Virus record (IMG/VR): IMGVR_UViG_3300034061_006535
Span: 1-23,859 of that record
DNA: 23,859 nucleotides
Origin: a virus
Reading direction: 5' to 3' (one strand)
Shown: positions 591 through 21,304 of the stretch, in pieces
How the letters are laid out: each line of letters begins with the position of its first letter
Position numbering within the stretch: position 1 is the first letter of the stretch
Program-made: the position numbers and the translations under genes
The notes under the pieces: model-generated
Told to the model about the DNA's origin: nothing
The model's input: the letters and a program-made list of their open reading frames with translations, nothing else
Databases searched by the model: none

Positions 591-1595
591 TTACCCGGCG
601 TTGATGAGAACGCCCTGTCCACCAAGGAAGTCAGCAACGAGCTGGCACTTGACGTAGAGCTGAGCTGAACGTGCTGTGGTACCAGAGATGTACTCGAAAG
701 GTGAAACTGCGAAGTCGCCATCAGCGTGGAAGACGAGCTTGATACCATCGTAGTTGAGCATGTATGCGCCAACAGTACCTGCAACTGAAGATGCAAAGCC
801 CATTTGTGGGTCCTGCTCAGCCATTGCGCCGTTGAAAGCAAGTGCCATACGTCCACCATCGAGGGTCTTGGTGTCAATGTAACGCTCATTTGCAAAGAGC
901 AACTGGCGGTACTGGCTTAGAACAGTTTCGCTCGTGATGAGGTGCTTAACGTCACCCATTGGAGCCACTGAGTTTGCCTTGATGTAGAGGTTATAGAGGT
1001 CGTCCATACCGAGTGAACCACCGCCGTTCTGGAACTGGTTCTGCCAGCCTGGAGTGGTTGAGAAGGTTGCCTTGGAGACACCACCGACCACGTTTGTCTG
1101 TGAACCAACAGCGAGGTGCTCAAGGAAACCAGTTGCAGAACCAATACCCACGTTACCGTTTAGGGTGTTGAGTGAGGTAAGGACTGCAGAGTCACCGCGA
1201 AGGACCTGCTTGTTGAGCTCTCTACGGAGCATGCCCATAACAGACTTCATACGAGCCTCAACAATCTTGACGATTGCGTACTCGCCGCTGTTTTCCATTT
1301 CCTCTTTCTTGGTGACTACGATAGGAGCCACGAAGTCAGCCCAGTCATAGATAGCTGGACGGAGGACGTCGTTCACTGCAAGGTTGACAGGCTCATAACC
1401 AGTTGCTAGCTGGGTAATAGTGCTGTGCTCCTGGATTGCAAGAGGACGCTGAATTTTGATACCACCTGGTTCGGTCTCGACGCCACCGGCTTTGCGGACA
1501 CCGTCAAGAAATGCAACCTTCTTGTAGAGTTCGTCGACTTCAGAGTCTCTGATGCTGTAGAGGGTTGAAGAGAGAAGATCGTTTGAGATAGCCAT
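591..1595 (-). CDS. Major capsid protein (HK97-fold type)
   Basis: A 334-residue protein placed after the scaffold-like gene and before the cement-like gene, where a major head protein is expected. An N-terminal helical stretch (DSEVDELYKKVAFLDGVRK) leads to a P-loop-like beta segment, a long helix rich in charged residues (KKEEMENSGEYAIVKIVEARM, about 96-116) matching an HK97 spine helix, and a C-terminal beta/alpha part ending DFLGGQGVLINAG. The size fits coat proteins of podoviruses and small siphoviruses. An AGGAAAAGGAAA ribosome site precedes the ATG. A 206-base leader separates it from the scaffold gene, allowing independent expression. The role as the shell protein is likely from size, context and composition; the fold is inferred. 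Confidence 0.85.
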   Translation of the reverse strand: MAISNDLLSSTLYSIRDSEVDELYKKVAFLDGVRKAGGVETEPGGIKIQRPLAIQEHSTITQLATGYEPVNLAVNDVLRPAIYDWADFVAPIVVTKKEEMENSGEYAIVKIVEARMKSVMGMLRRELNKQVLRGDSAVLTSLNTLNGNVGIGSATGFLEHLAVGSQTNVVGGVSKATFSTTPGWQNQFQNGGGSLGMDDLYNLYIKANSVAPMGDVKHLITSETVLSQYRQLLFANERYIDTKTLDGGRMALAFNGAMAEQDPQMGFASSVAGTVGAYMLNYDGIKLVFHADGDFAVSPFEYISGTTARSAQLYVKCQLVADFLGGQGVLINAG

Positions 1596-1801
1596 GATGT
1601 TTTCCTTTTCCTATTGGAAATACTTAGTTGTTAAAATTGAACTTGAGACTATTAGATTGTCCGGCCTACCCGGGTTCTATTTTGCTTCCTTCACCAGGGT
1701 TTAGGAGAAGTTGTCGACTTGTCGGTCTTCTCCTGCGAACGGGAAAGGTTGCTTCGCATAATTGTATGTATTACTAAAAACTGAAATGATAAACCAATCT
1801 G
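1596..1801 (-). promoter_or_regulatory. 206-base leader/spacer upstream of the capsid gene
   Basis: The spacer between the scaffold-like and capsid genes holds no convincing gene. On the minus strand it contains a weak -10-like TACAAT near 1755-1765, then the 8-bp hairpin described separately, then the capsid ribosome site. A 22-codon frame (MRSNLSRSQEK...) reads through the hairpin but lacks a ribosome site. An extra promoter or an mRNA-processing site boosting capsid expression would fit the position, but this is inference. Confidence 0.3.
1703..1734 (-). other. Hairpin in the capsid gene leader
   Basis: A perfect 8-bp inverted repeat (AGGAGAAG at 1703-1710, CTTCTCCT at 1727-1734) encloses a 16-base loop that can itself pair CGAC with GTCG. 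On the minus strand it is not followed by a T-run, so it may be an mRNA-stabilising or partial-termination hairpin rather than a strong terminator. Confidence 0.5.
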
Positions 1802-2590
1802 TTACTTTCCTTGTGCTTTATGATAATTATATGCCTCAATTGCACTACGGAATTGTGGAGTGCCGCTTGGTGAAGCTTTTGTTCCACTTGTACTTTTTAC
1901 AGCAGTCTCACGTCTTGCAGATTTATTTGCAGCAATCTTTGCCTTTTCAACCTTCAGCTTCTCGCCGTCAATCTGTGCCTTCACAATATAGAAAGCATCT
2001 TCAAGCTTCAGTTCAGGGCGGTCTTGCAAGAGTTTGATGATTGGCTTCTTGTATGCGTCGTCAGTTAGCTCAGGGTTTTCAGTTCTGAACTTCTCAAGAG
2101 CAAGCTTACGTGTGTTTGCTTCAAGCTCTTGCTGAGCAGGTTCGAGCATTTGCTTCAACATGAGAGCTGCTTGACGCTGTATTTCGTTCTTCATGCCATC
2201 TTCATCAAAGAGGTCATACTTTGTCTCAGTATCAATTTGCTTTAACTGATTTGCAAGTGGACCTTTTAGGAGGCTTTCATTGTTTCTTGTTAGCTCTGAC
2301 TTTGCAGCCTCTACCTCAGCACGCATTTTTGAGATTTCCTGTGTTTTGCGTGTGTAGTCTGCTCTGATGTTTGCAAGATGCTTTCTGACCTCTTCAGGTA
2401 CGTTCTTTAGCCATGACTGTATTGGCTTCATACCCTGATGTTTTGCATCATCATGAAAGAGTGGGTCATCATCAACTGAAAGCTGAAGTAAGTCTTCCAA
2501 AGTTGCAATGGTTGGGGTTTCTTCAACCACTGCTTCAGTTGCGGTGGCTGAGGTATTGTCAGTTGCGACAGTCTCAACATTTTCGCTCAT
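1802..2590 (-). CDS. Head scaffolding-like protein
   Basis: A 262-residue, highly charged and mostly helical protein immediately upstream of the capsid gene. The N-terminus is acidic and low in complexity (MSENVETVATDNTSATATEAVVEE). The centre (about 75-165) is rich in Lys, Glu, Gln and Ala with heptad-like spacing. The C-terminus is basic (KVEKAKIAANKSARRETAVKS) and ends in a short predicted helix (FRSAIEAYNYHKAQGK), where many phage scaffolds bind the coat protein. Scaffolds guide procapsid assembly and are lost before or during packaging. The ribosome site is GGAGAAATATT before ATG. No protease motif was seen. The call is by composition and position. Confidence 0.72.
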   Translation of the reverse strand: MSENVETVATDNTSATATEAVVEETPTIATLEDLLQLSVDDDPLFHDDAKHQGMKPIQSWLKNVPEEVRKHLANIRADYTRKTQEISKMRAEVEAAKSELTRNNESLLKGPLANQLKQIDTETKYDLFDEDGMKNEIQRQAALMLKQMLEPAQQELEANTRKLALEKFRTENPELTDDAYKKPIIKLLQDRPELKLEDAFYIVKAQIDGEKLKVEKAKIAANKSARRETAVKSTSGTKASPSGTPQFRSAIEAYNYHKAQGK

Positions 2591-2622
2591 AATATTTCTC
2601 CGTGTTTTGTTATGGTTGGCAG

Positions 2623-2644
2623 CTTAAGGACCAACCAATGCTTG
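2623..2644 (+). repeat. Dispersed 22-base repeat, copy A (intergenic)
   Basis: The 22-base sequence beginning CTTAAGGACC and ending AATGCTTG occurs here and exactly at 9572-9593, 9857-9878 and, inverted, 15452-15473. This copy is in the spacer before the scaffold-like gene. Similarity to copy D continues a few bases (TAGT) on the right. GGTTGG at 2614-2619 can pair with CCAACC at 2631-2636 inside the repeat. Confidence 0.9.
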
Positions 2645-2668
2645 TAGTATGTATCTATCTTATCTATT

Positions 2669-2693
2669 AGGAGGGGGCGACATGCCCCCTCCT
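2669..2693 (-). terminator. Strong GC-rich hairpin between head genes
   Basis: A perfect 10-bp stem (AGGAGGGGGC at 2669-2678, GCCCCCTCCT at 2684-2693) with a 5-base loop lies between the 173-residue gene and the scaffold-like gene. No T-run follows on the minus strand, so a partial terminator or an mRNA-stabilising hairpin adjusting head protein ratios is as likely as a full terminator. Confidence 0.55.
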
Positions 2694-2705
2694 CAACATT
2701 ACTTC

Positions 2706-3227
2706 TTACATGCGTCCCATCATGAGTTGGTCAGCATTTTCACTTGACATTTCCTCTTCAGGCATGTCGCCTTCCTCACCAGCTTCAGTTCCACGAGTCT
2801 CGTCCGTAGGTGGCTCAGACAAGAACTTCTTGAAGTCTTTTGATGAGGCAAGCATCTGCAGTTTGCCAGCAAGTGTTAGCAAGCCAGTGTCATCTGTGAT
2901 GCTGTCAAGGCTGATTGCCATTTCGGGTCCAACAACTTCCTCAGCAATTGCATCATTAACAGCTGCTACGAACATTGTGATAACACGAGTGAAGTCTTCT
3001 GGAAGCTCTTTTAAGTTACCAGGGAGGGTTGGGTAGTCACCAGACTGTCCAAAAAGTGGAAGCAACTTATTTGTAGCTTTTACAAGAGGAGCCAAACCTC
3101 TCCCAGTGAAGTTGCCTTTTGGTGATAATACCTTCACGGTCTCACTGTCAGCATATGCTGCTTCTTTTAGTCCACCTGAAAGTGGTCCAGTCATATCACC
3201 GCCAATCTCGATTTTGATTTTTTTCAT
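2706..3227 (-). CDS. Uncharacterised head-operon protein
   Basis: A 173-residue protein between the zinc-ribbon gene and the scaffold-like gene; I do not recognise its family. The N-terminus is short, basic and beta-like (MKKIKIEIGG). The middle is helical (VKATNKLLPLFGQ, FTRVITMFVAAVNDAIAEEVVG, LAGKLQMLASSKDFKKFL). The C-terminal 40 residues are very acidic and probably disordered (EPPTDETRGTEAGEEGDMPEEEM), ending MMGRM. A clear CAGGAG ribosome site lies 5-6 bases before the ATG. Its position in the portal-to-capsid block suggests a minor head or assembly protein. The acidic tail could act as a chaperone-like or DNA-mimicking region, which is speculation. Confidence 0.6.
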   Translation of the reverse strand: MKKIKIEIGGDMTGPLSGGLKEAAYADSETVKVLSPKGNFTGRGLAPLVKATNKLLPLFGQSGDYPTLPGNLKELPEDFTRVITMFVAAVNDAIAEEVVGPEMAISLDSITDDTGLLTLAGKLQMLASSKDFKKFLSEPPTDETRGTEAGEEGDMPEEEMSSENADQLMMGRM

Positions 3228-3243
3228 AATGTCTCCTGACCAA

Positions 3244-3723
3244 TTAGGTCGTTGAAATTTTATCGTCCCACACTTTATCTAGTTCACCACTAAGACACTT
3301 CTCAGCAGTAAAGGTTTCAGTAATCGCCTGAGCTGGTGTCAGACCACCCTTTATCTTACTTGCATAAGTATCTGAAAGTGCATCTTGCTGCGCTCTCTTT
3401 TCAATTATTTTGCTCTGATTATCTGCAAACCAGTGCTGTGGCAGGTCACGCTCATTTACAAAGCCACGGCTCTGCATAATCTTGGCCTCTTCACGTGCAT
3501 TGGCAACCTGCCGACCAAGTGCTTTGCTGAAGTAAGTATGACTCATGCCTTCAGACCAATTTCCGTGCCAACCCATTGCAGTTTTTGCAATAAGAGAAAC
3601 AATACGTGTCATTGCTAATGAGCATTTCTGGCAGACAACTTCAACCCTCTGTGCACGTTCCCATGACATAATGTGTTCATCTTTCAGACCACACTTATCA
3701 CATTTCCACTCATAAATCGGCAT
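3244..3723 (-). CDS. FmdB-like zinc-ribbon protein
   Basis: A 159-residue protein starting MPIYEWKCDKCG, with Cys8-x2-Cys11 and a second pair Cys31-x2-Cys34 (CQKC). This is the four-cysteine zinc ribbon of the FmdB family, in which the PxYEYxCxxC start is characteristic. The remaining 120 residues are a helical, charged extension without recognised motifs (GLTPAQAITETFTAEKCLSGE near the end). The ATG overlaps the portal stop as TAATG, and GGAG near the portal's end can serve as ribosome site, so translation is probably coupled. Small zinc ribbons next to portal genes occur in other environmental phages, but their role is unknown; nucleic-acid or protein binding in head assembly or gene control is possible. 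Confidence 0.72.
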   Translation of the reverse strand: MPIYEWKCDKCGLKDEHIMSWERAQRVEVVCQKCSLAMTRIVSLIAKTAMGWHGNWSEGMSHTYFSKALGRQVANAREEAKIMQSRGFVNERDLPQHWFADNQSKIIEKRAQQDALSDTYASKIKGGLTPAQAITETFTAEKCLSGELDKVWDDKISTT

Positions 3724-5351
3724 TATGCAACTCCAAGTGCGCTTGCAATCTTTTCAGCGCCAGTTGTTTGTGTAGTAGGACCACCTTCAATATTTGCAAT
3801 GTCAGAAGCTGAAGGACCAGGTGCTGGGCTCCTAACCTCATCGACTTGGAGGAAGGTCTTTGGTAGTTCGTAGTTTCTGACAATCTCTTCAAGAACAGCT
3901 CTTGGAGCGACGCCAAGACCCTGAAGCGTTGGAAGAAGACTGATGAGGTTCTGCTTTCTAATAGCATCTGAAAGAGGTGTGCTGCCTTGGTCAAGTGCAT
4001 TGATGCGGAACTTTCCTTCCAGGTCGTCTGCTGTTAGAACCTTTGCAGTTCCTTCAACATCAAGAACAGCGGTCTCGCCTTCATCAGCAAGCAAGACCAA
4101 CTGACGAAGATAAGTGATGATGATATTTTCAAGTGCATTATCACGCTCTCTTGCCATCTTACCAATTTCAGATGCAGAGTACTGTGCAAGAGCTGTAATC
4201 TCAGTTGCTGTTGCTTTTGTTGCCTCACCACGACTGAAAGGAGCAAGGACAGAGCCACGAGCAAGGTCACTTTCAATGTATGCGAGGTAACGGTCAAAGT
4301 TTCCAGAGATTGGTTCAACTGGAACTGCTTTGATGACACCTTCAAGTGTATCATTGTCAATGCCAATCATTGCGCCGTCAATGCCAGCAGTTACCTTTGC
4401 AAGTGCCTCTTCATCGACAAGTCCTTCCTTGTAGAGATATTGGCGACTGTCTCTGCGGACAGCGTTTGCCCAGTAAGTTCTGAGGACGTTCTTCTCGTAA
4501 ATCTGGTCATAAACACGGCCCATTGCCGAAAGCCCTATAAATGGACGACTTGGTACACGTGAGAAGAACAGTGGAACAATTGGAGCAAGTGCCTTGTCAT
4601 CATAAGTTCTGACTGGTATGGTATCACGTAGCAAGAACTTCTGACCATTGTGATAGTTTGGTGAGAAGAAATATACTTCATCATTGACAAAGTCATAGAG
4701 CTCAAGTATCTCAATATAGAGATAATCATCAGGAAGTGAGTTGTTTGAACGAGGAAGGCGACCTTTGTCATCTGAAGTAAAGTAGTCTACCTTTGGAACT
4801 GCAGTGTATTTCTTGGTTCCCCAAATCTGCTTTGCCTGTGCAAGTGTGATGTAGTAGTTGTGTCCAATGTATCTCTGGTCATCAGCACCAGTTGCATCGC
4901 GGTCAACAACAACTTCCCAGCAAGGAACTGCTTTGATAACAACTTTGTCCAACATATCAGACGAAGTACGTGGTGATAGTTTCAACGCTGAGTAATCATA
5001 AATGAGTGCAAGTCTTGCAGCAATCTCAAGTTGTTCGCGCTGATTATAAAGAAATCTGTTACTTGCTGCTTGAGCAAGCTTAGGGTCACCACCTGAAGCA
5101 GCAATGTCTGCTCCAACGACAACAGCTGGCTGACGTGCAAAGAAAGCTGAAATAAAACCTTCAATATAACTGAAACCATCACTAGTCTCAACACGTATCA
5201 TTGTGTCATCAAACTTGTGGTCAGACCAAAACTTGTTCTCATAAACGTTCTTATAGCGCTTCAGTTCTGCCTGCTTGTCAAGCCAATACTTCTTATGCTC
5301 AGCCAAGACAAGTGTACAAAATTTCAAAGCATCATCAACTGTGCGTGCCAT
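3723..5351 (-). CDS. Portal protein
   Basis: A 542-residue protein directly downstream of the large terminase and upstream of the scaffold and capsid genes, the standard position of the portal. Twelve copies normally form the ring at one capsid vertex through which DNA enters and leaves. An N-terminal helical part (VDDALKFCTLVLAEHKKYWLDKQ) is followed by a mixed alpha/beta wing with a PVRTYDDKALAPIVPLFFSR segment. A later helical stem and crown contains RGEATKATATEITALAQYSASEIGKMARERDNALENI-type residues, resembling the conserved TATE(I/V) plus helix seen in many portals. The ATG at 5351 (MARTV) is chosen because GGAG lies upstream. The frame is open further upstream, but only with a TTG codon lacking a ribosome site. 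Confidence 0.85.
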   Translation of the reverse strand: MARTVDDALKFCTLVLAEHKKYWLDKQAELKRYKNVYENKFWSDHKFDDTMIRVETSDGFSYIEGFISAFFARQPAVVVGADIAASGGDPKLAQAASNRFLYNQREQLEIAARLALIYDYSALKLSPRTSSDMLDKVVIKAVPCWEVVVDRDATGADDQRYIGHNYYITLAQAKQIWGTKKYTAVPKVDYFTSDDKGRLPRSNNSLPDDYLYIEILELYDFVNDEVYFFSPNYHNGQKFLLRDTIPVRTYDDKALAPIVPLFFSRVPSRPFIGLSAMGRVYDQIYEKNVLRTYWANAVRRDSRQYLYKEGLVDEEALAKVTAGIDGAMIGIDNDTLEGVIKAVPVEPISGNFDRYLAYIESDLARGSVLAPFSRGEATKATATEITALAQYSASEIGKMARERDNALENIIITYLRQLVLLADEGETAVLDVEGTAKVLTADDLEGKFRINALDQGSTPLSDAIRKQNLISLLPTLQGLGVAPRAVLEEIVRNYELPKTFLQVDEVRSPAPGPSASDIANIEGGPTTQTTGAEKIASALGVA

Positions 5352-5372
5352 ATGAGTTTTTATCTCCAATGT

Positions 5373-5382
5373 TACTATATAT
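5373..5382 (-). promoter_or_regulatory. Candidate promoter before the portal gene
   Basis: On the minus strand the spacer contains ATATATAGTA, with TATAGT as a possible -10 box, about 20 bases upstream of the portal start. The same ten bases occur upstream of the resolvase gene (7853-7862) and the polymerase-like gene (10160-10169). No good -35 box is visible (TTTTTA at 17-base spacing). Confidence 0.4.
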
Positions 5383-5468
5383 ACGCGACTATTGCTTAAA
5401 AATAACAAAGTTTGCGTCTTTTTAACACATTTTTTGCATCTGTCATCTGAAAGTGTGCTCTTTTTCCA

Positions 5469-7019
5469 TTAGTACCTTCGAGATCTTCCAACTGATGCAC
5501 CTGCATTTTTTGTGATACGTTGTGCTCTGTTTGCCACAACCCAATCTGGAAGATAAGAGTTTTGACGCAATATCACCTTTTCAGCGCAAGTATAAGCAAG
5601 TGCCATTGCAACTGCGGAGTCTGCGTGTGTTGACATCTGTTCTGGAAGTTGTATCAAACCACGTTCAGTTATTGTGATTGCTCGCAACTCTGAGTATGTG
5701 ATGTTGTCAACTTGTCTAATGACACACTTTTGTATGTGGTCTTTCAAACGCTCAAACATTTCAGTTTTGGTCTTCACTGTTGTTGTCCAATCACCACCAC
5801 TATCATCTTTCCAGAGCTTGTGATAGCCTTGATGTTTCATCTCATTAATGACAACATGGCCGTAGTTGTTACTTTCTACAAGTACGAGAGCATTGTTGTA
5901 TGATGTCCCAAGGTTCACTGCCATTTCAGCCTGACCAGTTGGAGGGACAAGATTAGAGCGCCAAATTGCTGCAGGTTGCATTGTTCGCTTGTTGATAACA
6001 TAGATGACTGCATTGTCTCCTCCAACGCCGCCTGAGGTGTCAACACCAATTGCATATGACTCGCCAGCTTGTGGCTTTTGAAATGTTACAAGTTCAGTCG
6101 GGTCAACACGCAGGACTTCAATGTTGTTGAAGTCATCAGCACGAAGCCAAGTGTTGCCTGAAATTGCATACGCATCATTAATGTCAGCAGGGTACTCACG
6201 TTTGAACTTGTCTCTTCCAATCTTTTCTATCTTCAGACGACGCCAATACAACTGTTCATCAGTCAAACCCCAGCGACCCCTTTCATCTATTTCGCTTTCA
6301 GTCCAAGCGACACCTGGTGGTAGGTCTTGTTGATACTCTTCGTGTTCGAACCATGGGAAGAAAAGATAGTTCCATGATGCTTCACCACGGTCATATTTCA
6401 TAACTTCTTGATGAAGTGCATCATTAAAGTGATTTGCTGTGCTCTCGATAATGAGCTGACCATTGTTCAGGGCGCTGATTGCTGTTGCCTTCAGCTCTTC
6501 TGGGTTCGGACTGAAAGCATACTCTGACATATGAAGAGCAGTACATGTAAATGAGCGTAGACCACCTTCACCACCAGCAGATGCAGCAATGATGCCGGCG
6601 CCTGTATCAGCAAAACGCAGTTCCATTGTGTTATCAACTGCAAGTTCACGCTTTAGTGACGTTGGTAAGTTGTCATAAAATGTTTTATGCATCTTTAGCA
6701 AATGCTTTGAACTGCCCATCTTATGGCTCAAGATTGCATAAGTCTCAGGCTCTTCAGCAACATATGCTTTCCAAAACAAGTAAGCTGAGATGATTGTTGA
6801 TGAACCAATTTGTCGGCCCTTACAGACAAGAGTATCGCCGCCTTCTTCCAAGGCAGAGATGATTTTTATCTGTTCAGCATTTGGTTGTAATTTGACACGC
6901 TTACCGTTTTTATTGATAATTATCAGATTGCTGATAAATCGAAGTGGCTCGTTTTTAATGACCTGGAGAAATTTCGTCTTTGAGCCACTCGTCGAGTTCT
7001 TCTGTTTCTTCACCGTCAT
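5469..7019 (-). CDS. terL: Terminase large subunit (TerL)
   Basis: A 516-residue DNA-packaging motor protein. The N-terminal ATPase has a Walker A-like CKGRQIGSST (66-75), a Walker B-like TALHMSEYAF with acidic Glu166, and a coupling motif ESTAN (192-196). The C-terminal RNase H-like nuclease shows GVDTSGG (Asp327), VESNNYG (Glu382) and HADSAVAMALAY (Asp467), the expected three acidic metal ligands. The protein cuts concatemeric DNA and drives it through the portal. The start at 7019 has AAGAAGG upstream and makes a 65-base overlap with the upstream gene, longer than other overlaps here. The motif set and gene order make this the most secure functional call in the window. Confidence 0.95.
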   Translation of the reverse strand: MTVKKQKNSTSGSKTKFLQVIKNEPLRFISNLIIINKNGKRVKLQPNAEQIKIISALEEGGDTLVCKGRQIGSSTIISAYLFWKAYVAEEPETYAILSHKMGSSKHLLKMHKTFYDNLPTSLKRELAVDNTMELRFADTGAGIIAASAGGEGGLRSFTCTALHMSEYAFSPNPEELKATAISALNNGQLIIESTANHFNDALHQEVMKYDRGEASWNYLFFPWFEHEEYQQDLPPGVAWTESEIDERGRWGLTDEQLYWRRLKIEKIGRDKFKREYPADINDAYAISGNTWLRADDFNNIEVLRVDPTELVTFQKPQAGESYAIGVDTSGGVGGDNAVIYVINKRTMQPAAIWRSNLVPPTGQAEMAVNLGTSYNNALVLVESNNYGHVVINEMKHQGYHKLWKDDSGGDWTTTVKTKTEMFERLKDHIQKCVIRQVDNITYSELRAITITERGLIQLPEQMSTHADSAVAMALAYTCAEKVILRQNSYLPDWVVANRAQRITKNAGASVGRSRRY

Positions 7020-7886: not shown

Positions 7887-8258
7887 ATGCAACAAACATC
7901 ATTAACATTTCAGTTAGATGGCGTTCCTATTGTGAGCAAGAAAAACAAAATGAAGGTTGGTCGTGGACGTGTCTATAAGCCAAAAGATGTGACTGACTTT
8001 GAAGATGCATTGGCAAAGGCTGCATCTGAGGTTGTGTGTCAAATTGATAATTGGCAACCACTAACAGGCAATCTGCAAATGGAGCTACACGTTCAGTTTC
8101 CAGACAGACGTCGTCGTGATTTGCATAACTGCTTTGACACGATTTGTGACGCACTTCAAGACATTGTCTATCTTGATGATAACCAAATCTTTCAGGTCTT
8201 TGCAAAGAAGTCAATTGGAAAGACTTGGTCACTCACAGTTACAATAACAGAAATTTGA
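7887..8258 (+). CDS. rusA: RusA-like Holliday junction resolvase
   Basis: A 123-residue protein with the RusA signature: RRRRDLHNCFDTICDAL (74-90) followed by YLDDNQIF (95-102). In RusA-family endonucleases, acidic residues in the D-x-(D/H)-N motif and in the DD motif bind metal and cut branched DNA; here Asp78, Asp97 and Asp98 are candidates, with His80 in place of the second Asp of Escherichia coli RusA, a substitution common in phage homologues. Length matches the family (about 120). It probably resolves recombination or replication branches before packaging. GGAG lies 8 bases before the ATG. It is encoded alone on the plus strand, ending at a strong terminator, among minus-strand genes. 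Confidence 0.85.
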   Translation: MQQTSLTFQLDGVPIVSKKNKMKVGRGRVYKPKDVTDFEDALAKAASEVVCQIDNWQPLTGNLQMELHVQFPDRRRRDLHNCFDTICDALQDIVYLDDNQIFQVFAKKSIGKTWSLTVTITEI

Positions 8259-8632: not shown

Positions 8633-9001
8633 CTAGTGACCTCCTGTGGCCTTCGTATCACCTCGTGGTTGCTGATGGTATGGACTATTGGTAGGCTCAT
8701 TAGAAGCCGGCTCGTGTGTCACCAGTGCCTCGTCCATAATATTAGCTATGCAATTGTCTCCATGCCAACGCTTTATGTTACCAATGTCTGCTACCAAACC
8801 ACAATGAGTGCAAAATGCATCAGGTGGACGCTTTGCAGTTAGCATACGCTCTGACAACTTCTGCCGTGCTTCACTGTTGCTGTAATAGTCGAGAGCAGAT
8901 TGTTTCAGTCTCTCTCTATGTTTTTCACCAAACTTTCTGCCTTTCAGTTTTTCTGAAATTGCCTGCTTTTCTTCTTCTGTTTTTGGTCTTCTGCTTTTCA
9001 T
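8633..9001 (-). CDS. NUMOD3/zinc-finger protein, homing-endonuclease related
   Basis: A 122-residue basic protein. Residues 1-50 (KTEEEKQAISEKLKGRKFGEKHRERLKQSAL) resemble NUMOD3 DNA-binding repeats found in GIY-YIG and HNH homing endonucleases. Residues 64-84 form a putative C-C-H-C zinc site (FCTHCG, then RWHGDNC), also common in those proteins. No GIY-YIG or HNH catalytic motif is present, so it is either a DNA-binding accessory or the C-terminal remnant of an endonuclease. The start at 9001 (MKSRRP) is chosen because GGAG lies 8 bases upstream; an ATG two codons earlier would be too close. The ATG overlaps the stop of the polymerase-like gene as TAATG, suggesting coupling. Confidence 0.7.
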   Translation of the reverse strand: MKSRRPKTEEEKQAISEKLKGRKFGEKHRERLKQSALDYYSNSEARQKLSERMLTAKRPPDAFCTHCGLVADIGNIKRWHGDNCIANIMDEALVTHEPASNEPTNSPYHQQPRGDTKATGGH

Positions 9002-10086
9002 TACCATTTCTCCACTTTAAGTTTGTGAGGGCTTGCAAGATAGGCAGCTTTCTTAACATCAAGTTCACTGAAAATAATGCCGTCATGAATTAACAAGGCT
9101 TCCTTTCCTGCCTGCAAACAACGTTCAACAACTTGCCACTCAAGGTAAGTAAAGACGTTATGCACAGTCAGCATGATGTCTTCAGGCAGGTTGTGCTCTC
9201 CCCAAGATGTTGCTTTTTCAATGATGTGCTCACGTAGGTTATCATACCAAATGACGCCTGTCTTCTCTGTGTGATGACGCTTCTTGCTGAAGAGCTTTGA
9301 CCTTATACGCTTTGCTCTCTCATCATCATACACATGGAAGTCACGCTTGATGATGCTGAGGAAATAGTCTTTATGTTCAGGGTTAAGCCATTGAGCGTTC
9401 TCTAGTTCGCAGTCATAGCCACCAAGTTCGTGCCACCAAATAGATGAGAAGCATGAGACGATGTCAATGTTGAAACAACCGCGAAATATCTTTTTCTTTT
9501 CAGCAGTCGAAATGTTCTGGTCTGGGTGATACCAGCGGTAGCTCTTCTTTGTTCTGTAATAGAACGGCTTGCTTAAGGACCAACCAATGCTTGCTGTATT
9601 AGTAGTGTCTCTTGTCTGGTGGTGGAACAGGCGTTCAATATAAGAAGGTATTTTGAGGTCGGCATACTTGTTGAAGAGATTTTCAGCTCCTGAAGTCCAA
9701 CCATTGATTGTTCTTGCACGACCTTGAAATGAACTTGATGTCTTACACTTCCAGATGACGAAAGCATCAAAATACTTGTCATAGTCTTTTGTATGAACAC
9801 CTAACTTGTTCTTGATAACTTCAGTTGATGGAGCAAGTAGTTCAATTTGTTTTCTTCTTAAGGACCAACCAATGCTTGCTGTGTTGGTGGTCTTCTTGTT
9901 CTTATGTGGTTGAAGCTTGCCAATAGAAGCAGCCTTCATAACTGGTGCATTTAATAGAGTCTGTTGCTTGCGGTAGCACCAGAGAAAATAAAAGAAGATA
10001 TCAAGGCTCCTGGGAACGCGTGTCATTAGGAGTAGAGCCTTGATATCTTGCTTGATTTGAACGTATGTGGGAGAAACAGAGCGCAT
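9001..10086 (-). CDS. Compact polymerase-like protein (possible family A/T7/TV-Pol relative)
   Basis: A 361-residue basic protein. Near 205-215 lies CFNIDIVSCFSS with Asp208, like palm motif A of polymerases. Residues 331-341 read LLIHDGIIFSE with Asp335, closely matching the (V/I)HD(E/S) motif C of family A DNA polymerases and T7-like RNA polymerases. RIRSK (260-264) has the Arg-x3-Lys spacing of motif B. TV-Pol proteins of transposons and viruses are a known small branch with such motifs. The palm here is compact (127 residues between motifs A and C). Motif A also resembles reverse transcriptases, but no YxDD is present. Residues 66-76 and 161-171 (TTNTASIGWSL) are encoded by the dispersed repeat. 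AAGGA precedes the ATG. Polymerase activity is inferred; the N-terminal half is unrecognised. Confidence 0.6.
   Translation of the reverse strand: MRSVSPTYVQIKQDIKALLLMTRVPRSLDIFFYFLWCYRKQQTLLNAPVMKAASIGKLQPHKNKKTTNTASIGWSLRRKQIELLAPSTEVIKNKLGVHTKDYDKYFDAFVIWKCKTSSSFQGRARTINGWTSGAENLFNKYADLKIPSYIERLFHHQTRDTTNTASIGWSLSKPFYYRTKKSYRWYHPDQNISTAEKKKIFRGCFNIDIVSCFSSIWWHELGGYDCELENAQWLNPEHKDYFLSIIKRDFHVYDDERAKRIRSKLFSKKRHHTEKTGVIWYDNLREHIIEKATSWGEHNLPEDIMLTVHNVFTYLEWQVVERCLQAGKEALLIHDGIIFSELDVKKAAYLASPHKLKVEKW
9572..9593 (+). repeat. Dispersed repeat, copy B (inside the polymerase-like gene)
   Basis: An exact copy of the 22-base repeat, in the same plus-strand orientation as copies A and C. Read on the minus strand it encodes ASIGWSL in frame. 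Similarity to copy C runs about 20 bases further (both encode TTNTASIGWSL with synonymous changes), and to copy D through AGTGTCTCT. Copies B and C are 285 bases apart, exactly 95 codons. Confidence 0.95.
9857..9878 (+). repeat. Dispersed repeat, copy C (inside the polymerase-like gene)
   Basis: An exact copy of the 22-base repeat, in frame in the polymerase-like gene. Compared with copy B the adjacent codons are ACC ACC AAC instead of ACT ACT AAT, so the peptide is kept while third bases differ; the core itself is identical. Confidence 0.95.
9995..10049. repeat. 15-bp perfect inverted repeat in the start of the polymerase-like gene
   Basis: AAGATATCAAGGCTC (9995-10009) and GAGCCTTGATATCTT (10035-10049) are perfectly complementary around a 25-base loop. 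It begins about 37 bases inside the coding region and would make a strong mRNA hairpin on the minus strand, also possible as a cruciform or protein-binding site. It encodes QDIKALLL...RSLDIF. Confidence 0.9.
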
Positions 10087-10093
10087 TTGGAAG

Positions 10094-10141
10094 TCCTTGT
10101 TTGTGAGCCGTGGTGAAAGACAAACAGGCTTACCACGGCTC
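10094..10141 (-). promoter_or_regulatory. Structured leader with two competing hairpins at the ribosome site
   Basis: On the minus-strand mRNA a perfect 10-bp stem (GAGCCGTGGT, 10141-10132, with ACCACGGCTC, 10114-10105) encloses a 17-base loop. The loop's TGTTTGT (10126-10120) is complementary to ACAAACA (10104-10098), which directly abuts the AAGGA ribosome site. The two pairings overlap topologically with no linker, so they should compete: one leaves the ribosome site open, the other masks its edge. A translational switch is a reasonable inference. Confidence 0.55.
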
Positions 10142-10159
10142 TGTTTCTACAACCACTGA

Positions 10160-10169
10160 TACTATATAT
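10160..10169 (-). promoter_or_regulatory. Candidate promoter for the polymerase-like gene
   Basis: On the minus strand ATATATAGTA, including TATAGT, lies just upstream of the structured leader, so a transcript would start near 10150 and include the whole leader. The same ten bases occur before the portal and resolvase genes. The -35 area is A-rich (AAAAAAAGTGAAAGTAAC) without a clear box. Confidence 0.45.
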
Positions 10170-10224
10170 TATGTTACTTTCACTTTTTTTACATTTTTTA
10201 GAGTTATAACAAATTTTTTATTTA

Positions 10225-10285
10225 CATCAAAAACAGTTCATTTATTTCACATCTAAGATAATATTTAGTTGTAAAAGGGAAATAA
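10225..10285 (+). promoter_or_regulatory. AT-rich spacer with possible promoter for the nuclease gene
   Basis: The AT-rich plus-strand spacer has GATAAT near 10256-10261 as a weak -10 candidate about 25 bases before the nuclease ATG, and AAAAGGGAAATAA as ribosome site. No convincing -35 box is seen. Confidence 0.3.
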
Positions 10286-10807
10286 ATGATGACAAAATTT
10301 ATTGATGAAAATACTGAAACTGGAAAGAGAGCAATTGCTATTGGAGAAGAGGCTGAACTTGCAGTTATTGCAATGTTCAAAAAGCGTGGCTTCAATGTAA
10401 GACGCAATCTCCCCTCAGGCACGGACACGCGTCCTCTTCCAGGTTATGACATAGAAATTGAGAACGGTGGACAAACTCGACTTGTTGAAATAAAATCATC
10501 TTCAGGAAAGCATACTGATGGAGCACCTTGCTCAACAGCATTTCTTCAGACAAAGAAAGGTTCACTCACTGGAACAGTACAAGAAGATTGGTGCAACACG
10601 AGCATTGAGACTCATGCTGACCTCCTTGTTCTCTTCAATCATGCAAATGGCAAAGCACATCTTTATAATGCTGATAAACTCCGCCGTTTTTGTAAAGAGT
10701 GGGGCTGGCTAGAACGCGGTATGAAAGATAGTGGAACTACGATTGGTATTTTGTTGCCTTGGTCTTGCCGTGACGCAGGTTTCATAAAGACATTGGAGAC
10801 AAAATGA
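10286..10807 (+). CDS. PD-(D/E)XK-type nuclease
   Basis: A 173-residue protein with the PD-(D/E)XK pattern: a helix with conserved Glu (GEEAELAVIAMFKKRGF, Glu24), GYDIEIENGG with Asp55, and RLVEIKSSSG with Glu68-x-Lys70. These residues bind metal and cut phosphodiester bonds in restriction enzymes, Holliday junction resolvases and phage exonucleases. The subfamily cannot be told from sequence alone. The later half (ETHADLLVLFNHANGKAHLYNADKLRRF) fits the fold's sheet and helices. GGGAAATAA precedes the ATG, and the stop shares ATGA with the next gene. It is one of two plus-strand nuclease units, so recombination, host DNA degradation or defence against other DNA are possible roles. Confidence 0.75.
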   Translation: MMTKFIDENTETGKRAIAIGEEAELAVIAMFKKRGFNVRRNLPSGTDTRPLPGYDIEIENGGQTRLVEIKSSSGKHTDGAPCSTAFLQTKKGSLTGTVQEDWCNTSIETHADLLVLFNHANGKAHLYNADKLRRFCKEWGWLERGMKDSGTTIGILLPWSCRDAGFIKTLETK

Positions 10808-15451: not shown

Positions 15452-15473
15452 CAAGCATTGGTTGGTCCTTAAG
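15452..15473 (-). repeat. Dispersed repeat, copy D (inverted, intergenic)
   Basis: The 22-base repeat is exact but inverted relative to copies A, B and C: the plus strand reads CAAGCATTGG to GGTCCTTAAG. Upstream AGAGACACTACC resembles the extended region of copy B. It sits between the giant virion gene and the appendage operon, outside any credible gene. Confidence 0.95.
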
Positions 15474-15589: not shown

Positions 15590-18500
15590 CTATTTTGGTG
15601 TTTCACCAGCTTGCAATGCAGCCTTCTTAACTTTCAAGTCAGCAAGTTCAGTCTTGATTTGGTCACGACGAAGAAGTGCTTGAGTCTTTGTAATCTCACC
15701 ATCACGAACACGTTTTGGCAAACTATTAAGCTCAGACTGCTTAGCAAGCATTTCAGCTTTCACAGCATCAAGTGTCAAGACTTTCTCAGCTTTCTTCTGA
15801 ACTTTTGCTTCAGTCTTAGCAAATCTGATGTCCTGCTCTGTTTTCTCAGCAGCGGTTGCAGGAAGAGCAGTCTTGACATCTTCGATTGCCTTGTTGCTCA
15901 AATCACGAGCCCATGATGCTGCTTCCTTGTCAAGCAAGATGACGTTCTTGGCACGTTGCATCATTGGTGACTGACCCTTCAGCGGTGTGTTCAAGTTAAG
16001 TGTGTAAAGAACATTGTCAACACCAGATTTTGTGACTTTCATACCTGGCTCTCCAAGCATGTTTGGTAGCTCACCAACAATACGCATTAAACCAAGATAG
16101 TTGAGAACTGCAATACGGTCAGTGTAAGTTTTCTGCTGTATTGGGTCAACAAGTTTGTAAGTCAATGTGCCGTCTTCTTTCTTAATTGGTTTGACATAAT
16201 CAAGTTCACCACGTAACCATTTTGAAGTAGGTGTGACAAGAGCTGAGACAAGGTCTCCAGTTTGCTGACCTGTTGCAGCTGCAACAAGGCTAATTGCATA
16301 AAGTTGCTCTGTAGGTATTTCTTCCATGTCACGTGTTTCATCAAGATTGAGAAGCGCCTTTGTTTCTGGACGCAACATGCCTGTTAACTGCTCAGCGTAA
16401 CGTCCAGCAAGAAGATTTCCAAATAGATCAAGCGCTGATAATGTGCTGTCAGATGGACCTGCAGCAATGTAGACTGGCTTACCATCTACTGGTTTTGCAA
16501 GTCCCATGATAATGCGTGTATCAGTTGACGTTGGAGCAAATGCTCTTAACTCTTTCAACTCTTGTTGTGACATATCATTTTCAGTGCTGTTTAAAATTAA
16601 GCCTTCTGCTCCACGTTTTGTTGCGCCAATTTTGACGATACGCTTGAAGAAAAGAGGGTCAGTCATATTTTTTAGAAGATTTACAAGGTTATTTCTTGCA
16701 AAGCTATAAAACAATGTAGCTGCTTGTATTTTCTTCTCAGCTGAAGTAATGTCACCTGTGTCATACATTGCTCGTCTTGCAAGTTCAACTGCATCATCAA
16801 GCGAACGACCTTCCTTTAGAGCATCAATACCAACAGTCATACGCCAGATTGTGTCTGATGTTGTTGGAAAGTCTTTAAATGATTGATAGGCTCGTTCTGC
16901 TGGTCCTGCGATGCCTTCGCTCAGTTCACGTGCAACTGCTGTTGAACGGACGTCTGCAAGACCAAGTTCTTGTGTGCTTGCACCTGCTCTTGTTGAGAAG
17001 GCTTCCCAAAGCTCATCTGGTGTATACTTTCTGCCAGCCGCATCAAGAACTGAGAGTGTACGTATGCTAACATCGTCCGCCGTAAACGGCTTGCTTAAGC
17101 GTTTACCTACTCGTGAGGCCCAGGTTCCGTCGGGCACGGCCTCGGCAGCCTTGTTCTTAAAGATGCCGGTTTGTAGCACACCATTTTCAAAGTCGCCACC
17201 ACGAGCTGTACCAGCTTTAGTAGCGACATTAATCGCTTGATTAAGTGTCTCTGGGTCTACAAACCTTCCAGTTGTTCCGTAAATAAGACCAGGTGCTCCG
17301 AACCAGTTGCCTGCGTGGAAGCGTGGACTTAAATTTAAGACTGCTGTGTAGAAAAGGTCAGTGACAGCTGAAAGTGCAGAGCTTACCAATCTTGTAGACT
17401 TGTCAAGTCCACTTTCATCAGCATACTTTCGCAAAGCATCTGCGATATTTGACTCCACAGTTGCAGCACCACTTTCAGCAAATGCAGCTTTCATTTGTTT
17501 TGCGATGTCTTCACCAAGAACAAGTTTTGCGCGTTCATAAACATCAGGACTGTTCAACGCTTTTCTTATGTCTGATACTCGATCACTTATGTTGTCAGCA
17601 CTACGCAGACCATTTGCATCAAAAATTTGTTTTGCAAAATCATCAACAAGGGCAAGTACCTCAGGTGTTACCTGAGGCTTAGGTCCAAACAATGATAACT
17701 GTGGGTCCGCTTCGTCAACACCAAATGCACGAAGAACATTATTATCAACAGTTGTAGAAGACTTCAAGATGTTTGGGTCTGAAACAAAAGTTTCTAATCT
17801 TGCAACAATCATGTCTTTTAATTTTTGTTCTGCGCCACTTCCTAATGCTACAAGAGCATCGTCACTTATACGTGTGAACAATTGCTCAATGTCATTTTGC
17901 TCGACAATAGATTTGATTGTATCATCAATTGCGCGTTTAGCCTCAGCTCTATAATATGTGCCTACCAACACTTCTTGTGGAAGCTCCCATCTGAGGACAT
18001 CACTGTTTTTTACGATATCAATGATCTTATCATTTGGGTTTTTAAGATTTTTTGCATCTGCAGTTAATCTTACAAGATTATCATGAAGCTCTCTCATTTC
18101 GCTCCAAAGAGTTGCAGGAGCGTTTTGGACATTGCGCGCAGCATCTGTAACAAGGTTGTCAACAAGACTGCGACCAGTCTCTGACCAGATATCAGTTGAA
18201 CGCTCTAAATTGATACCGCTGAAAATGTCGAAAATGTCTTCGCGATAACCTGCTGTTGTCAACATTGATTTTGACATGTCATTTAGTATTTTTTCTATAT
18301 CGATAATGTTGATGTCTGCGTCTTTTGGAAATGTCAAATATGCAAGCGCTTCTGACCGACTAATCTCATTTTTTGAGCCTGTCAATGCTTCACGAAAGTT
18401 TAGGTCGCCCATTACTTTTCTGATGTCATTACGTAACTTTTGGTCAATCTTAGACAACTTTGATGTAACATCATTAATTGCTGCACGTTGTGATGCATTA

Positions 18501-21304
18501 AGTCTGAGGTTCGCAGGTTTGTTGACACCTGCAATGCTTGTCATTTTGTCATAAATTGACAAGAAAGTTTGATGATTGAAGCTTCTTGCTTCGACAGGTA
18601 TAGTTGTTGCAAGCGCTTGACGAGGTTGCAAACGACTGACTTCAGCGGCTCCAACAGCATTTTTACTAGTTGCTGCAAGTTGATCAATATCAGCATCAAT
18701 AAGTTTTCTTAAGTCTTTGTATGAAATGAAGTCATCAATTGCGACATCGGCTGCCAACTCTGGTCGACGACTTCCGCGGCCTGGGACAAATGGGAAATCA
18801 GTAATTTGTAACTTACCAACTGCCTTTAAGCGATCTATAGCGTCTTGGACTTCTGCTGCCTCTGCACGAGTCAACTCCACCCCTGATGAAGTTTCTCTTG
18901 TAATGTAAGGCACGTCTTGTAGACGTTGTGGAGCACCGATAAATGTTGCTCGTCTACCTGACTTTCCATAAACAGTTGGTTTATCACGAAGTTCTTGTAG
19001 AAGTTGTCCAAAGTCTCCTTTTCTAAATTGATTTAACAAGCGGTCTGCTTCAACAGGTGAAGCCCAAGTGTTTCTTGTAACACGAACATAATCATCAAAT
19101 GCATCAACATCTGCTGTTGCACTATAAACTTCTTGTAATGTCTTGCGCTCTACAATTTGACGTTTTACTGCATTTGCAACATCAGCATCAGAACGAACTA
19201 ACCTGAGGAGTTCTGTTGCACCTACTCCTTGACCTGTTTTGATTGCCTGTCGCACTTTTGTAGCTATTGCTGGGTCAGCAACAGCAACTTCACCAAGTGA
19301 ACGAAGAACATCACGGCTTGATGTTGGAACACCACTGCCTGCAAGGAAGTTATCAAACTTCTTAATGTCTTCAATTGCACTGTCGAGGTATTTTGCATCA
19401 GCAACAATTGCCTCCAGCTTTTCAGCATCAGTTGCACCTGGAGTTGATGCCCAACGCTTTGCAAACTGTGTCTTTTCTTTTCCTGGAGCAAACTGAACAG
19501 GAGCACCAGCTTCAATAGCTTTGCGTGCATCATTGGCAACATCAATCTCACGTGTTATTTGCTCTGCAACAAAATGGCGAAGGTCACCAGGCTGAAGTGA
19601 TTTCTTGCTGAAAGGTACGCCGAGTAGCGGAGAAGTTGATGCAGCTTCTTTTACACCTTCAGAAACACCACGACTTAATGCCTTTTGAACATCTGGTACA
19701 AGACCTGCTGCTTTCATACCTTTGTAAGTCTGAGTTGCAACACGAGCACCTTTTGAGGCACCTGAAACAATGTCAAGACTTGGGTCTAGAAGATCTGCAG
19801 CAAATGCACCTGCTAAGTAGACGTTTGCTGCGTTTCCAAATACTGGTACATCAACTTCACGAAGTCCCATGATATCTGCAGTTTCTATAGCTTCACCAAT
19901 GAAACCACGACCTTCAGCAACGTTTAGAAGTATTGGACTGTCTTTATAAGCTTTCGGACGTCTTACACGTTTTTCTGCTGCAATGTCTTCACGTGTTTCT
20001 GGAGCTAATGCGCTACCTTCGAAAAGTAATGGAGCAATGGCTCCTGCAGTAACGTTAGGTACAATCATTGCCGAACGGAGCAACCAACCCATGTTTGTTT
20101 CACGAGTGGTTCCATAAGGGTTTGTCTGGCTCAGGAGACCCCAATTAAATTTGTTTGGGTCTGCTAAACGTTTCTCTAGTTTCTCTTGGTCAGCCCAAAA
20201 TGGAAGAGCAACCTCATTTTCAGCCATCTGACGAAGTGCAGTATCTTTCTCAGAGCCTGAGAGTGTCTTCTTTTCAATGCGTGTACTTCCGCCAGGTCCA
20301 GGCACTTCATCACTGACTGTAATGTCTTTGTTTGCATACTCAGCTTTTAACTGTGCATATCGTCTATCAACTTTCTTGTTTTTCTGAGTAGTCAAGTAAG
20401 CAATCTGTACTGGTGACAAGTCAGGGAAACCTTCACCAGCTTTTGTCTGCTTCTGAAATGCAGCATAGAGCGGGTCAGTCATCAACCCAGTCATTTGTGC
20501 AGTAGGTTCTTTCTTCCACTTTGTCTTGTTGCTAATGGCCCCAGATATGGAGCCTAACTCCTTGTTGACCATTTCGAAGATTTCTTTTGATGTGGAGTTA
20601 GGGTTTTTTACACGAACGACATCATATGCAGTCTTGAGAGCAAAGAGCTCATCATTTACTGCATCTTCAGTCAAATCTGGCTTCTGCTCTTTGATTGACT
20701 TATAGACATCGCCCCAAGTGAAGTCTTGCTTTGTAGCTTCAGTCTTCTTCTTTTCAGCTTCTACCTGAACATCTGGAAGATAGGTTCTTGGACGAAGTGC
20801 TTCACGTAGTGTTGCAGTGTTTGTCAAATCGAGTGGTAGACCACCTTCTGGGACAATACCACCAGCTCTCTTTTCTGCAACTGTTCCAGCATAGTTTTTG
20901 CCCATTGGAACACCAAACATTTCTTCAAAAGTTGTTGCTGCTTTTTCTTGTGCAACAACACCTGGAAGACCAGTTTCTGAAAGCTGGCGTGCCTTTTCAG
21001 TTGTAACAATTTGTTTTGAACCAGCAAGACCTTTCTCAGCCCCTAAAATGTCGCTCTTTGCAGCAACTTCACGTTTTGCAACTTCTCTTGGAAGGTTCTG
21101 AGGAAGTGGAGCACGTGAGGCAGCAAGCGCAGCTTTTACTTCAGGCGTCGCTGTACCTTTTTCTTCCAACGCTGAAGTCAGACCTTCAGCACCAACTTCT
21201 TCAGTAAATGCTTTGTCAACCGCTTGGACCGTAGGTAAGCCCTGAGCAATAAGTTCCTGTGCGCGCTTTTGAACACGAGCACGCTGTTCATTAGTAATTG
21301 GCAT
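15590..21304 (-). CDS. Giant internal virion/ejection-like protein (1904 aa)
   Basis: A 1904-residue, mostly helical protein. It starts MPITNEQRARVQKRAQELIA. About residues 405-430 and 485-505 are moderately hydrophobic (MIVPNVTAGAIAPLLFEG; VYLAGAFAADLLDPSLD). Around 1325-1343 it reads LSPRFHAGNWFGAPGLIYG, and around 1521-1543 SAEKKIQAATLFYSFARNN; both resemble conserved blocks near the C-terminus of very large phage internal or polyvalent proteins. The last 70 residues form a Lys/Glu coiled coil. It is third of three genes in the order 220+, 616 and 1904 residues, as T7 gp14, gp15 and gp16, which build the DNA-ejection tube. CAGGAG precedes the ATG. No lytic transglycosylase motif was seen. 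The role is inferred. Confidence 0.7.
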   Translation of the reverse strand: MPITNEQRARVQKRAQELIAQGLPTVQAVDKAFTEEVGAEGLTSALEEKGTATPEVKAALAASRAPLPQNLPREVAKREVAAKSDILGAEKGLAGSKQIVTTEKARQLSETGLPGVVAQEKAATTFEEMFGVPMGKNYAGTVAEKRAGGIVPEGGLPLDLTNTATLREALRPRTYLPDVQVEAEKKKTEATKQDFTWGDVYKSIKEQKPDLTEDAVNDELFALKTAYDVVRVKNPNSTSKEIFEMVNKELGSISGAISNKTKWKKEPTAQMTGLMTDPLYAAFQKQTKAGEGFPDLSPVQIAYLTTQKNKKVDRRYAQLKAEYANKDITVSDEVPGPGGSTRIEKKTLSGSEKDTALRQMAENEVALPFWADQEKLEKRLADPNKFNWGLLSQTNPYGTTRETNMGWLLRSAMIVPNVTAGAIAPLLFEGSALAPETREDIAAEKRVRRPKAYKDSPILLNVAEGRGFIGEAIETADIMGLREVDVPVFGNAANVYLAGAFAADLLDPSLDIVSGASKGARVATQTYKGMKAAGLVPDVQKALSRGVSEGVKEAASTSPLLGVPFSKKSLQPGDLRHFVAEQITREIDVANDARKAIEAGAPVQFAPGKEKTQFAKRWASTPGATDAEKLEAIVADAKYLDSAIEDIKKFDNFLAGSGVPTSSRDVLRSLGEVAVADPAIATKVRQAIKTGQGVGATELLRLVRSDADVANAVKRQIVERKTLQEVYSATADVDAFDDYVRVTRNTWASPVEADRLLNQFRKGDFGQLLQELRDKPTVYGKSGRRATFIGAPQRLQDVPYITRETSSGVELTRAEAAEVQDAIDRLKAVGKLQITDFPFVPGRGSRRPELAADVAIDDFISYKDLRKLIDADIDQLAATSKNAVGAAEVSRLQPRQALATTIPVEARSFNHQTFLSIYDKMTSIAGVNKPANLRLNASQRAAINDVTSKLSKIDQKLRNDIRKVMGDLNFREALTGSKNEISRSEALAYLTFPKDADINIIDIEKILNDMSKSMLTTAGYREDIFDIFSGINLERSTDIWSETGRSLVDNLVTDAARNVQNAPATLWSEMRELHDNLVRLTADAKNLKNPNDKIIDIVKNSDVLRWELPQEVLVGTYYRAEAKRAIDDTIKSIVEQNDIEQLFTRISDDALVALGSGAEQKLKDMIVARLETFVSDPNILKSSTTVDNNVLRAFGVDEADPQLSLFGPKPQVTPEVLALVDDFAKQIFDANGLRSADNISDRVSDIRKALNSPDVYERAKLVLGEDIAKQMKAAFAESGAATVESNIADALRKYADESGLDKSTRLVSSALSAVTDLFYTAVLNLSPRFHAGNWFGAPGLIYGTTGRFVDPETLNQAINVATKAGTARGGDFENGVLQTGIFKNKAAEAVPDGTWASRVGKRLSKPFTADDVSIRTLSVLDAAGRKYTPDELWEAFSTRAGASTQELGLADVRSTAVARELSEGIAGPAERAYQSFKDFPTTSDTIWRMTVGIDALKEGRSLDDAVELARRAMYDTGDITSAEKKIQAATLFYSFARNNLVNLLKNMTDPLFFKRIVKIGATKRGAEGLILNSTENDMSQQELKELRAFAPTSTDTRIIMGLAKPVDGKPVYIAAGPSDSTLSALDLFGNLLAGRYAEQLTGMLRPETKALLNLDETRDMEEIPTEQLYAISLVAAATGQQTGDLVSALVTPTSKWLRGELDYVKPIKKEDGTLTYKLVDPIQQKTYTDRIAVLNYLGLMRIVGELPNMLGEPGMKVTKSGVDNVLYTLNLNTPLKGQSPMMQRAKNVILLDKEAASWARDLSNKAIEDVKTALPATAAEKTEQDIRFAKTEAKVQKKAEKVLTLDAVKAEMLAKQSELNSLPKRVRDGEITKTQALLRRDQIKTELADLKVKKAALQAGETPK

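Follow-up and report, generated by a model that had tools for sequence, protein, structure and literature searches.

Does a tailed phage carry a polymerase of unusually small size among its accessory genes? The question is raised by the open reading frame P0001, located on the minus strand at positions 9001-10086 (stop codon included) of a virus record of 23,859 bases, the whole of which was analysed here and is referred to as the window. The window contains the head and packaging module of a tailed phage, with the genes for the major head protein (591-1595), a portal-like protein (3723-5408) and the large subunit of the terminase (5469-7019). A gene for RusA is located at 7887-8258. A 1904-aa protein encoded at 15590-21304, without convincing family match, is by its position probably virion-associated. 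P0001 comprises 361 codons, starts with ATG at 10086, with the good ribosome-binding site AAGGA seven bases upstream, and ends with the stop codon at 9003-9001. The stop-free frame around it spans 381 codons, which is far above chance at 44% GC, and the plus-strand translation of the same interval (9001-10086) contains 18 stops.

The original prediction had read two palm motifs of family A polymerases in the P0001 protein, and both are found at the positions claimed: motif A (NIDIVSCF) carries Asp208 and motif C (LLIHDGIIF) carries Asp335, 127 residues apart. Sequence searches against Pfam, PHROGs and the PDB gave no match, nor did the curated families of DNA polymerase I (PF00476) and T7 RNA polymerase (PF00940) at E 10. 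Using tblastn, no credible match was obtained in 50,697 phage records or in plasmids, and a search of 84,980 genomes of bacteria and archaea, sensitive enough for close relatives only, yielded none. The sole carrier of P0001 found in a scan of IMG/VR was another contig from this phage, near-identical in sequence, and DNA patterns for its motifs A and C gave either this contig or out-of-context chance matches. By these searches P0001 is an orphan and appears nearly unique, therefore no family profile of its own can be built. The lack of any Pfam, PHROG, PDB or phage match would suit a protein that is no polymerase at all, i.e., an unrelated orphan phage protein with coincidental motifs. The choice of the ORF by eye, for its motifs, points the same way; since the window holds about 20 to 30 genes, the correction for this choice is small compared with the profile numbers given below.

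Small A-type palm families have been described in mobile elements, namely TV-Pol (Iyer et al., 2008; PMC2579912) and divPolA2 (PMC11348598), and P0001 was compared with profiles of both. The divPolA2 profile (PHROG 4756), made from 12 collected proteins, gave P0001 a score of 0.2-2.2 bits, within the range of shuffled sequences. The same profile picked the ORF MAP_030 of Microcystis phage Ma-LMM01, located beside a transposase as expected for a TV-Pol, and from MAP_030 a TV-Pol set was grown that includes plasmid, bacterial-genome and phage members; P0001 was left out of all TV-Pol profiles. With the first of these (seven proteins) P0001 scored 6.9 bits and was exceeded by 6 of 20,000 shuffles of its own sequence. 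With 11 proteins it scored 16.4 bits (single-target E 2.4e-7), a value reached by none of 20,000 shuffles, the best of which scored 10.0 bits. Such a rise on adding true TV-Pols is what homology predicts. Leave-one-out profiles gave 12.2-16.4 bits, with 0 of 5,000 shuffles higher, and in a set of 868 ORFs P0001 ranked just under the true TV-Pols and above the divPolA2s, which were followed by T7 DNA polymerase and then by all other ORFs. A point against the relationship is the low similarity in pairwise comparison, where BLASTP gave E values of 0.5 or worse.

The match to the TV-Pol profile consists of two collinear and correctly spaced blocks. Block 1 (residues 177-219; 9430-9558, minus strand; profile positions 3-48) contains the hairpin Arg184, Gln190, the motif A Asp208 and Cys212; the Arg, Gln and Asp fall in columns that are invariant in the 11 TV-Pols. 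Arg184 and Gln190 are sequence-level matches to the beta-hairpin with a conserved arginine that precedes motif A in TV-Pols, and the invariant TV-Pol Gly ahead of Arg184 is a Tyr in P0001. Block 2 (residues 261-346; 9049-9306, minus strand; profile positions 135-211) contains a helix with a Glu, the motif C triplet His334-Asp335-Gly336, likewise aligned with invariant columns, and then ELD. Which residue corresponds to the invariant TV-Pol Glu ahead of motif C varies with the alignment (E302 or E316). The protein ends with LKVEKW, 26 residues past Asp335, and TV-Pol cores also end shortly after motif C. The score above shuffles, the two collinear blocks and the leave-one-out stability support the assignment of P0001, at sequence level, as a divergent TV-Pol-like palm protein of superfamily A, and homology of its palm to that of TV-Pols is well supported and very probable. 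Both the palm reading and the suggestion of TV-Pol in the original prediction are thereby backed by an independent profile test.

Structure prediction was uninformative. The AlphaFold model of P0001 from its single sequence had a pLDDT of 37 and placed a helix over motif A, and a model of residues 150-361 together with five TV-Pols was equally poor (pLDDT of both models about 36). The order of elements in the former (hairpin 168-186, long helix 302-325, hairpin 331-338, helix, final strand) is compatible with a palm and is not counted as evidence. The thumb of TV-Pols, a module of two antiparallel helices, was likewise not modelled with confidence. The poor models would also be in keeping with a protein unrelated to polymerases; however, coincidental motifs would have to account for two collinear profile blocks, a score beyond 20,000 shuffles and a rank just under true members that is stable to leaving out single proteins, and we regard this explanation as decidedly unlikely.

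Between the two blocks, about 86 profile positions are represented by 41 residues in P0001 (residues 220-260; 9307-9429, minus strand), therefore the fingers of P0001 are shortened. An unusually small polymerase had been predicted from the 127 residues between motifs A and C, and this spacing is indeed the shortest among 24 proteins compared, the other 23 (TV-Pols and divPolA2s) having 136-219. In TV-Pols the fingers contain an invariant Lys (RxxxK, in a helix-turn-helix) that is followed in most members by Tyr/Phe-Gly, with the Gly invariant. The RIRSK that had been proposed as motif B is present in P0001 (R260-K264), but K264, just beyond the shortened region, is one of three candidates for this Lys, along with K239 and K259, and the Lys...Tyr-Gly signature was not recognizable in the alignment with the 11 TV-Pols. 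In view of this reduced fingers motif, P0001 may well have lost its activity. The main rival to an active P0001 is a decayed TV-Pol-like gene, i.e., a catalytically dead polymerase homologue whose fingers were deleted and into which repeats were inserted, with the downstream homing-endonuclease fragment as a second remnant. The shortened fingers and the missing Tyr-Gly would fit such decay, as would the repeats and the inverted repeat in the 5' half of the gene, the lack of a nuclease domain in the downstream protein (both described below) and the codon-use scores of P0001, which lie below those of the structural genes. Furthermore, related palm-only proteins are thought to be inactive (PMC10061031). 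Against this stand the 361 open codons behind a good ribosome-binding site, whereas unselected decay is expected to break the frame first, and the retention of both catalytic aspartates and of the hairpin Arg. We therefore consider a decayed gene possible, although rather improbable.

Comparison with known systems places P0001 closest to the TV-Pols. It shares with them (e.g., with MAP_030) the hairpin Arg, the Gln, a motif A Asp in the context [NY]xD[IV]xxC, the helix Glu, the motif C HDG and the C-terminal end of the core, as well as the occurrence in phages, TV-Pols being found in phages and mobile elements. In contrast, P0001 has 361 aa compared with about 500-775 in TV-Pols, its motif spacing of 127 compares with 142-219, and the Lys...Tyr-Gly-Ala of TV-Pol fingers is not recognizable. 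The D5 helicase, resolvase and transposase of the TV-Pol context were not recognized near P0001 or among any of the contig's proteins that were compared with Pfam and PHROGs, in a contig that may be a fragment; this association is a contextual and not a structural criterion for TV-Pols, of which standalone members exist. P0001 shows the palm motifs and the hairpin (both at sequence level) and the profile relationship; its fingers signature is ambiguous, and no helicase/recombinase context was recognized within the contig. TV-Pol-like is a better name for it than typical TV-Pol. In Desulfovibrio phage SRB7757 we observed an unannotated TV-Pol-like ORF of 775 aa with the motif C LLHDGLYF. The divPolA2 family resembles P0001 in having a small A-type palm in tailed phages, a variable neighbourhood and an N-terminal part unrelated to known thumbs, but its motifs (GGRxY, [DE]xD[FY]xxxxPS[IV] and HDSF) are unlike those of P0001. 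The CcPol-MP / PolA-SSB primases (PMC10061031), compared here from papers and not by sequence, include members with little beyond the palm, and their A-type polymerase gene is followed, as at the P0001 locus, by a gene for a small DNA-binding protein; this partner is an OB-fold protein, whereas the protein encoded next to P0001 resembles the DNA-binding half of homing endonucleases.

The latter is encoded at 8633-9007 in the same direction as P0001 (minus strand) and overlaps the 3' end of P0001 by 7 nt. Its 124-aa product matches PHROG 655 (homing endonuclease, E 5e-7, profile positions 143-235 of 343) and PHROG 314 (homing endonuclease, E 4e-6), contains a NUMOD3-like repeat and a CxxC...HxxxxC (C2HC-type) finger, and lacks the catalytic nuclease domain. 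In Pseudoalteromonas phage J2-1 (889-3333) the next gene after that of a divPolA2 is annotated as a homing endonuclease, thus small A-type polymerases and homing-endonuclease parts adjoin in a second phage. Upstream of P0001, on the opposite strand and divergent, lies a possible nuclease-like gene (10286-10807) with weak NOV_C and Holliday-junction-resolvase matches. P0001, a small gene of the 8633-9007 type and the nuclease-like gene were absent, where covered, from the locus in two contigs with 55-56% identical terminases, one of which covers the P0001 locus most fully. Because of this absence, the cassette of the three genes looks accessory. The location of P0001 away from any replication module had been called odd; no helicase or replication module was recognized within the 23.9-kb contig, a point against the polymerase reading, and such a location fits an accessory mobile gene, in line with the variable neighbourhoods of TV-Pol and divPolA2 relatives in phages and mobile elements (PMC2579912; PMC11348598).

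A structured RNA leader had also been predicted. The folding is real, the minus-strand region 9930-10250 having a fold z of -4.4 as RNA and the region 9980-10160 fold z values of -6.9/-5.7 as DNA; the folded part is, however, not confined to a leader but spans the start codon and the first 34 codons. It consists of a long stem enclosing an inner hairpin (10067-10153, minus strand; inverted repeat, RNA fold and DNA folds), which holds the ribosome-binding site and the start codon, and of a 24-nt inverted repeat (88%) with a 25-nt loop in codons 10-34 (9986-10058, minus strand; inverted-repeat search, RNA and DNA folds). No Rfam family or tRNA was found. Unlike P0001, the divPolA2 genes have no structured leader, no special structure being seen in the 12 genes analysed. 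The suggestion that P0001 copies its own leader found no direct support.

The residues ahead of the P0001 core also hold, besides the long inverted repeat, two copies of a phage-wide repeat, which likewise counts against the polymerase reading. This 22-nt element, CTTAAGGACCAACCAATGCTTG, occurs four times in the window without mismatch: twice within the P0001 ORF (9572-9593 and 9857-9878, both plus strand, the former translating to ASIGWSL on the minus strand) and twice in intergenic regions, at 2623-2644 (plus strand), 33 nt ahead of where the minus-strand gene 1802-2590 starts, and in the opposite orientation at 15452-15473 (minus strand). In some copies the likeness reaches further upstream (AGAGACACTAC...). 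In a 97.8% identical relative the copy at 2623 is present with three mismatches, and no convincing match to the element was found in phage records. The translated repeat TTNTASIGWSL had been considered as a protein domain repeat; it was rejected as such and represents an interspersed DNA element.

Four exact copies, one of them preceding a structural gene by 33 nt, might suggest that P0001 is a single-subunit RNA polymerase with these elements as promoters. An A-type palm makes RNA in T7, and a possible role as RNA polymerase has been suggested for divPolA2 (PMC11348598). On the other hand, one intergenic copy is wrongly oriented and two copies lie inside the P0001 ORF, a promoter-recognition domain was not recognized and the T7 RNA polymerase Pfam family was unmatched within the window. 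The RNA polymerase idea has no direct support, and we consider it extremely improbable.

Altogether, P0001 is probably a highly divergent, compact TV-Pol-like member of superfamily A that is accessory in a tailed phage and has a palm and a primase/polymerase role; for its function, an accessory primase/polymerase appears most likely by analogy. The association of TV-Pols with D5 helicases led to the prediction that they are primase-polymerases (PMC2579912). CcPol, which has been assigned to the TV-Pol group, synthesizes DNA primers de novo together with a small protein that binds DNA (PMC10061031). In the Vibrio phages GR11A (1451-4220) and GR7B (1445-4150), a ribonuclease HI gene comes after the unannotated TV-Pol, a neighbour that may point to RNA primers. 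The analysis demonstrates the ORF, its motifs, the relationship to the TV-Pol profile and the overlap with a gene for a DNA-binding protein of homing-endonuclease type. From these we infer that P0001 folds into a palm, binds metals, acts as a primase/polymerase and works together with the protein encoded downstream. The C-terminal 185 residues would form the palm, Asp208 and Asp335 would bind two metals and Arg184 would contact the template. If P0001 works like TV-Pols and CcPol-MP, it would initiate short DNA strands or elongate them in phage replication or repair, and the small DNA-binding protein (8633-9007) might guide it to DNA. A more far-reaching version, in which P0001 is a minimal primase-polymerase with fingers smaller than in any A-type enzyme compared, addressed to its sites by the co-translated homing-endonuclease DNA-binding protein and starting at the hairpins of its own gene or at the 22-nt elements, is speculative and very unlikely.

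Genes of the P0001 type escape all standard annotation: P0001 matched no library and was recognized only via the hand-built TV-Pol profile. If P0001 is active, the known minimal size of the catalytic unit of superfamily A would be lowered, and the TV-Pol branch would reach phages with reduced fingers. If it is inactive, P0001 would mark a decay route of accessory polymerases.
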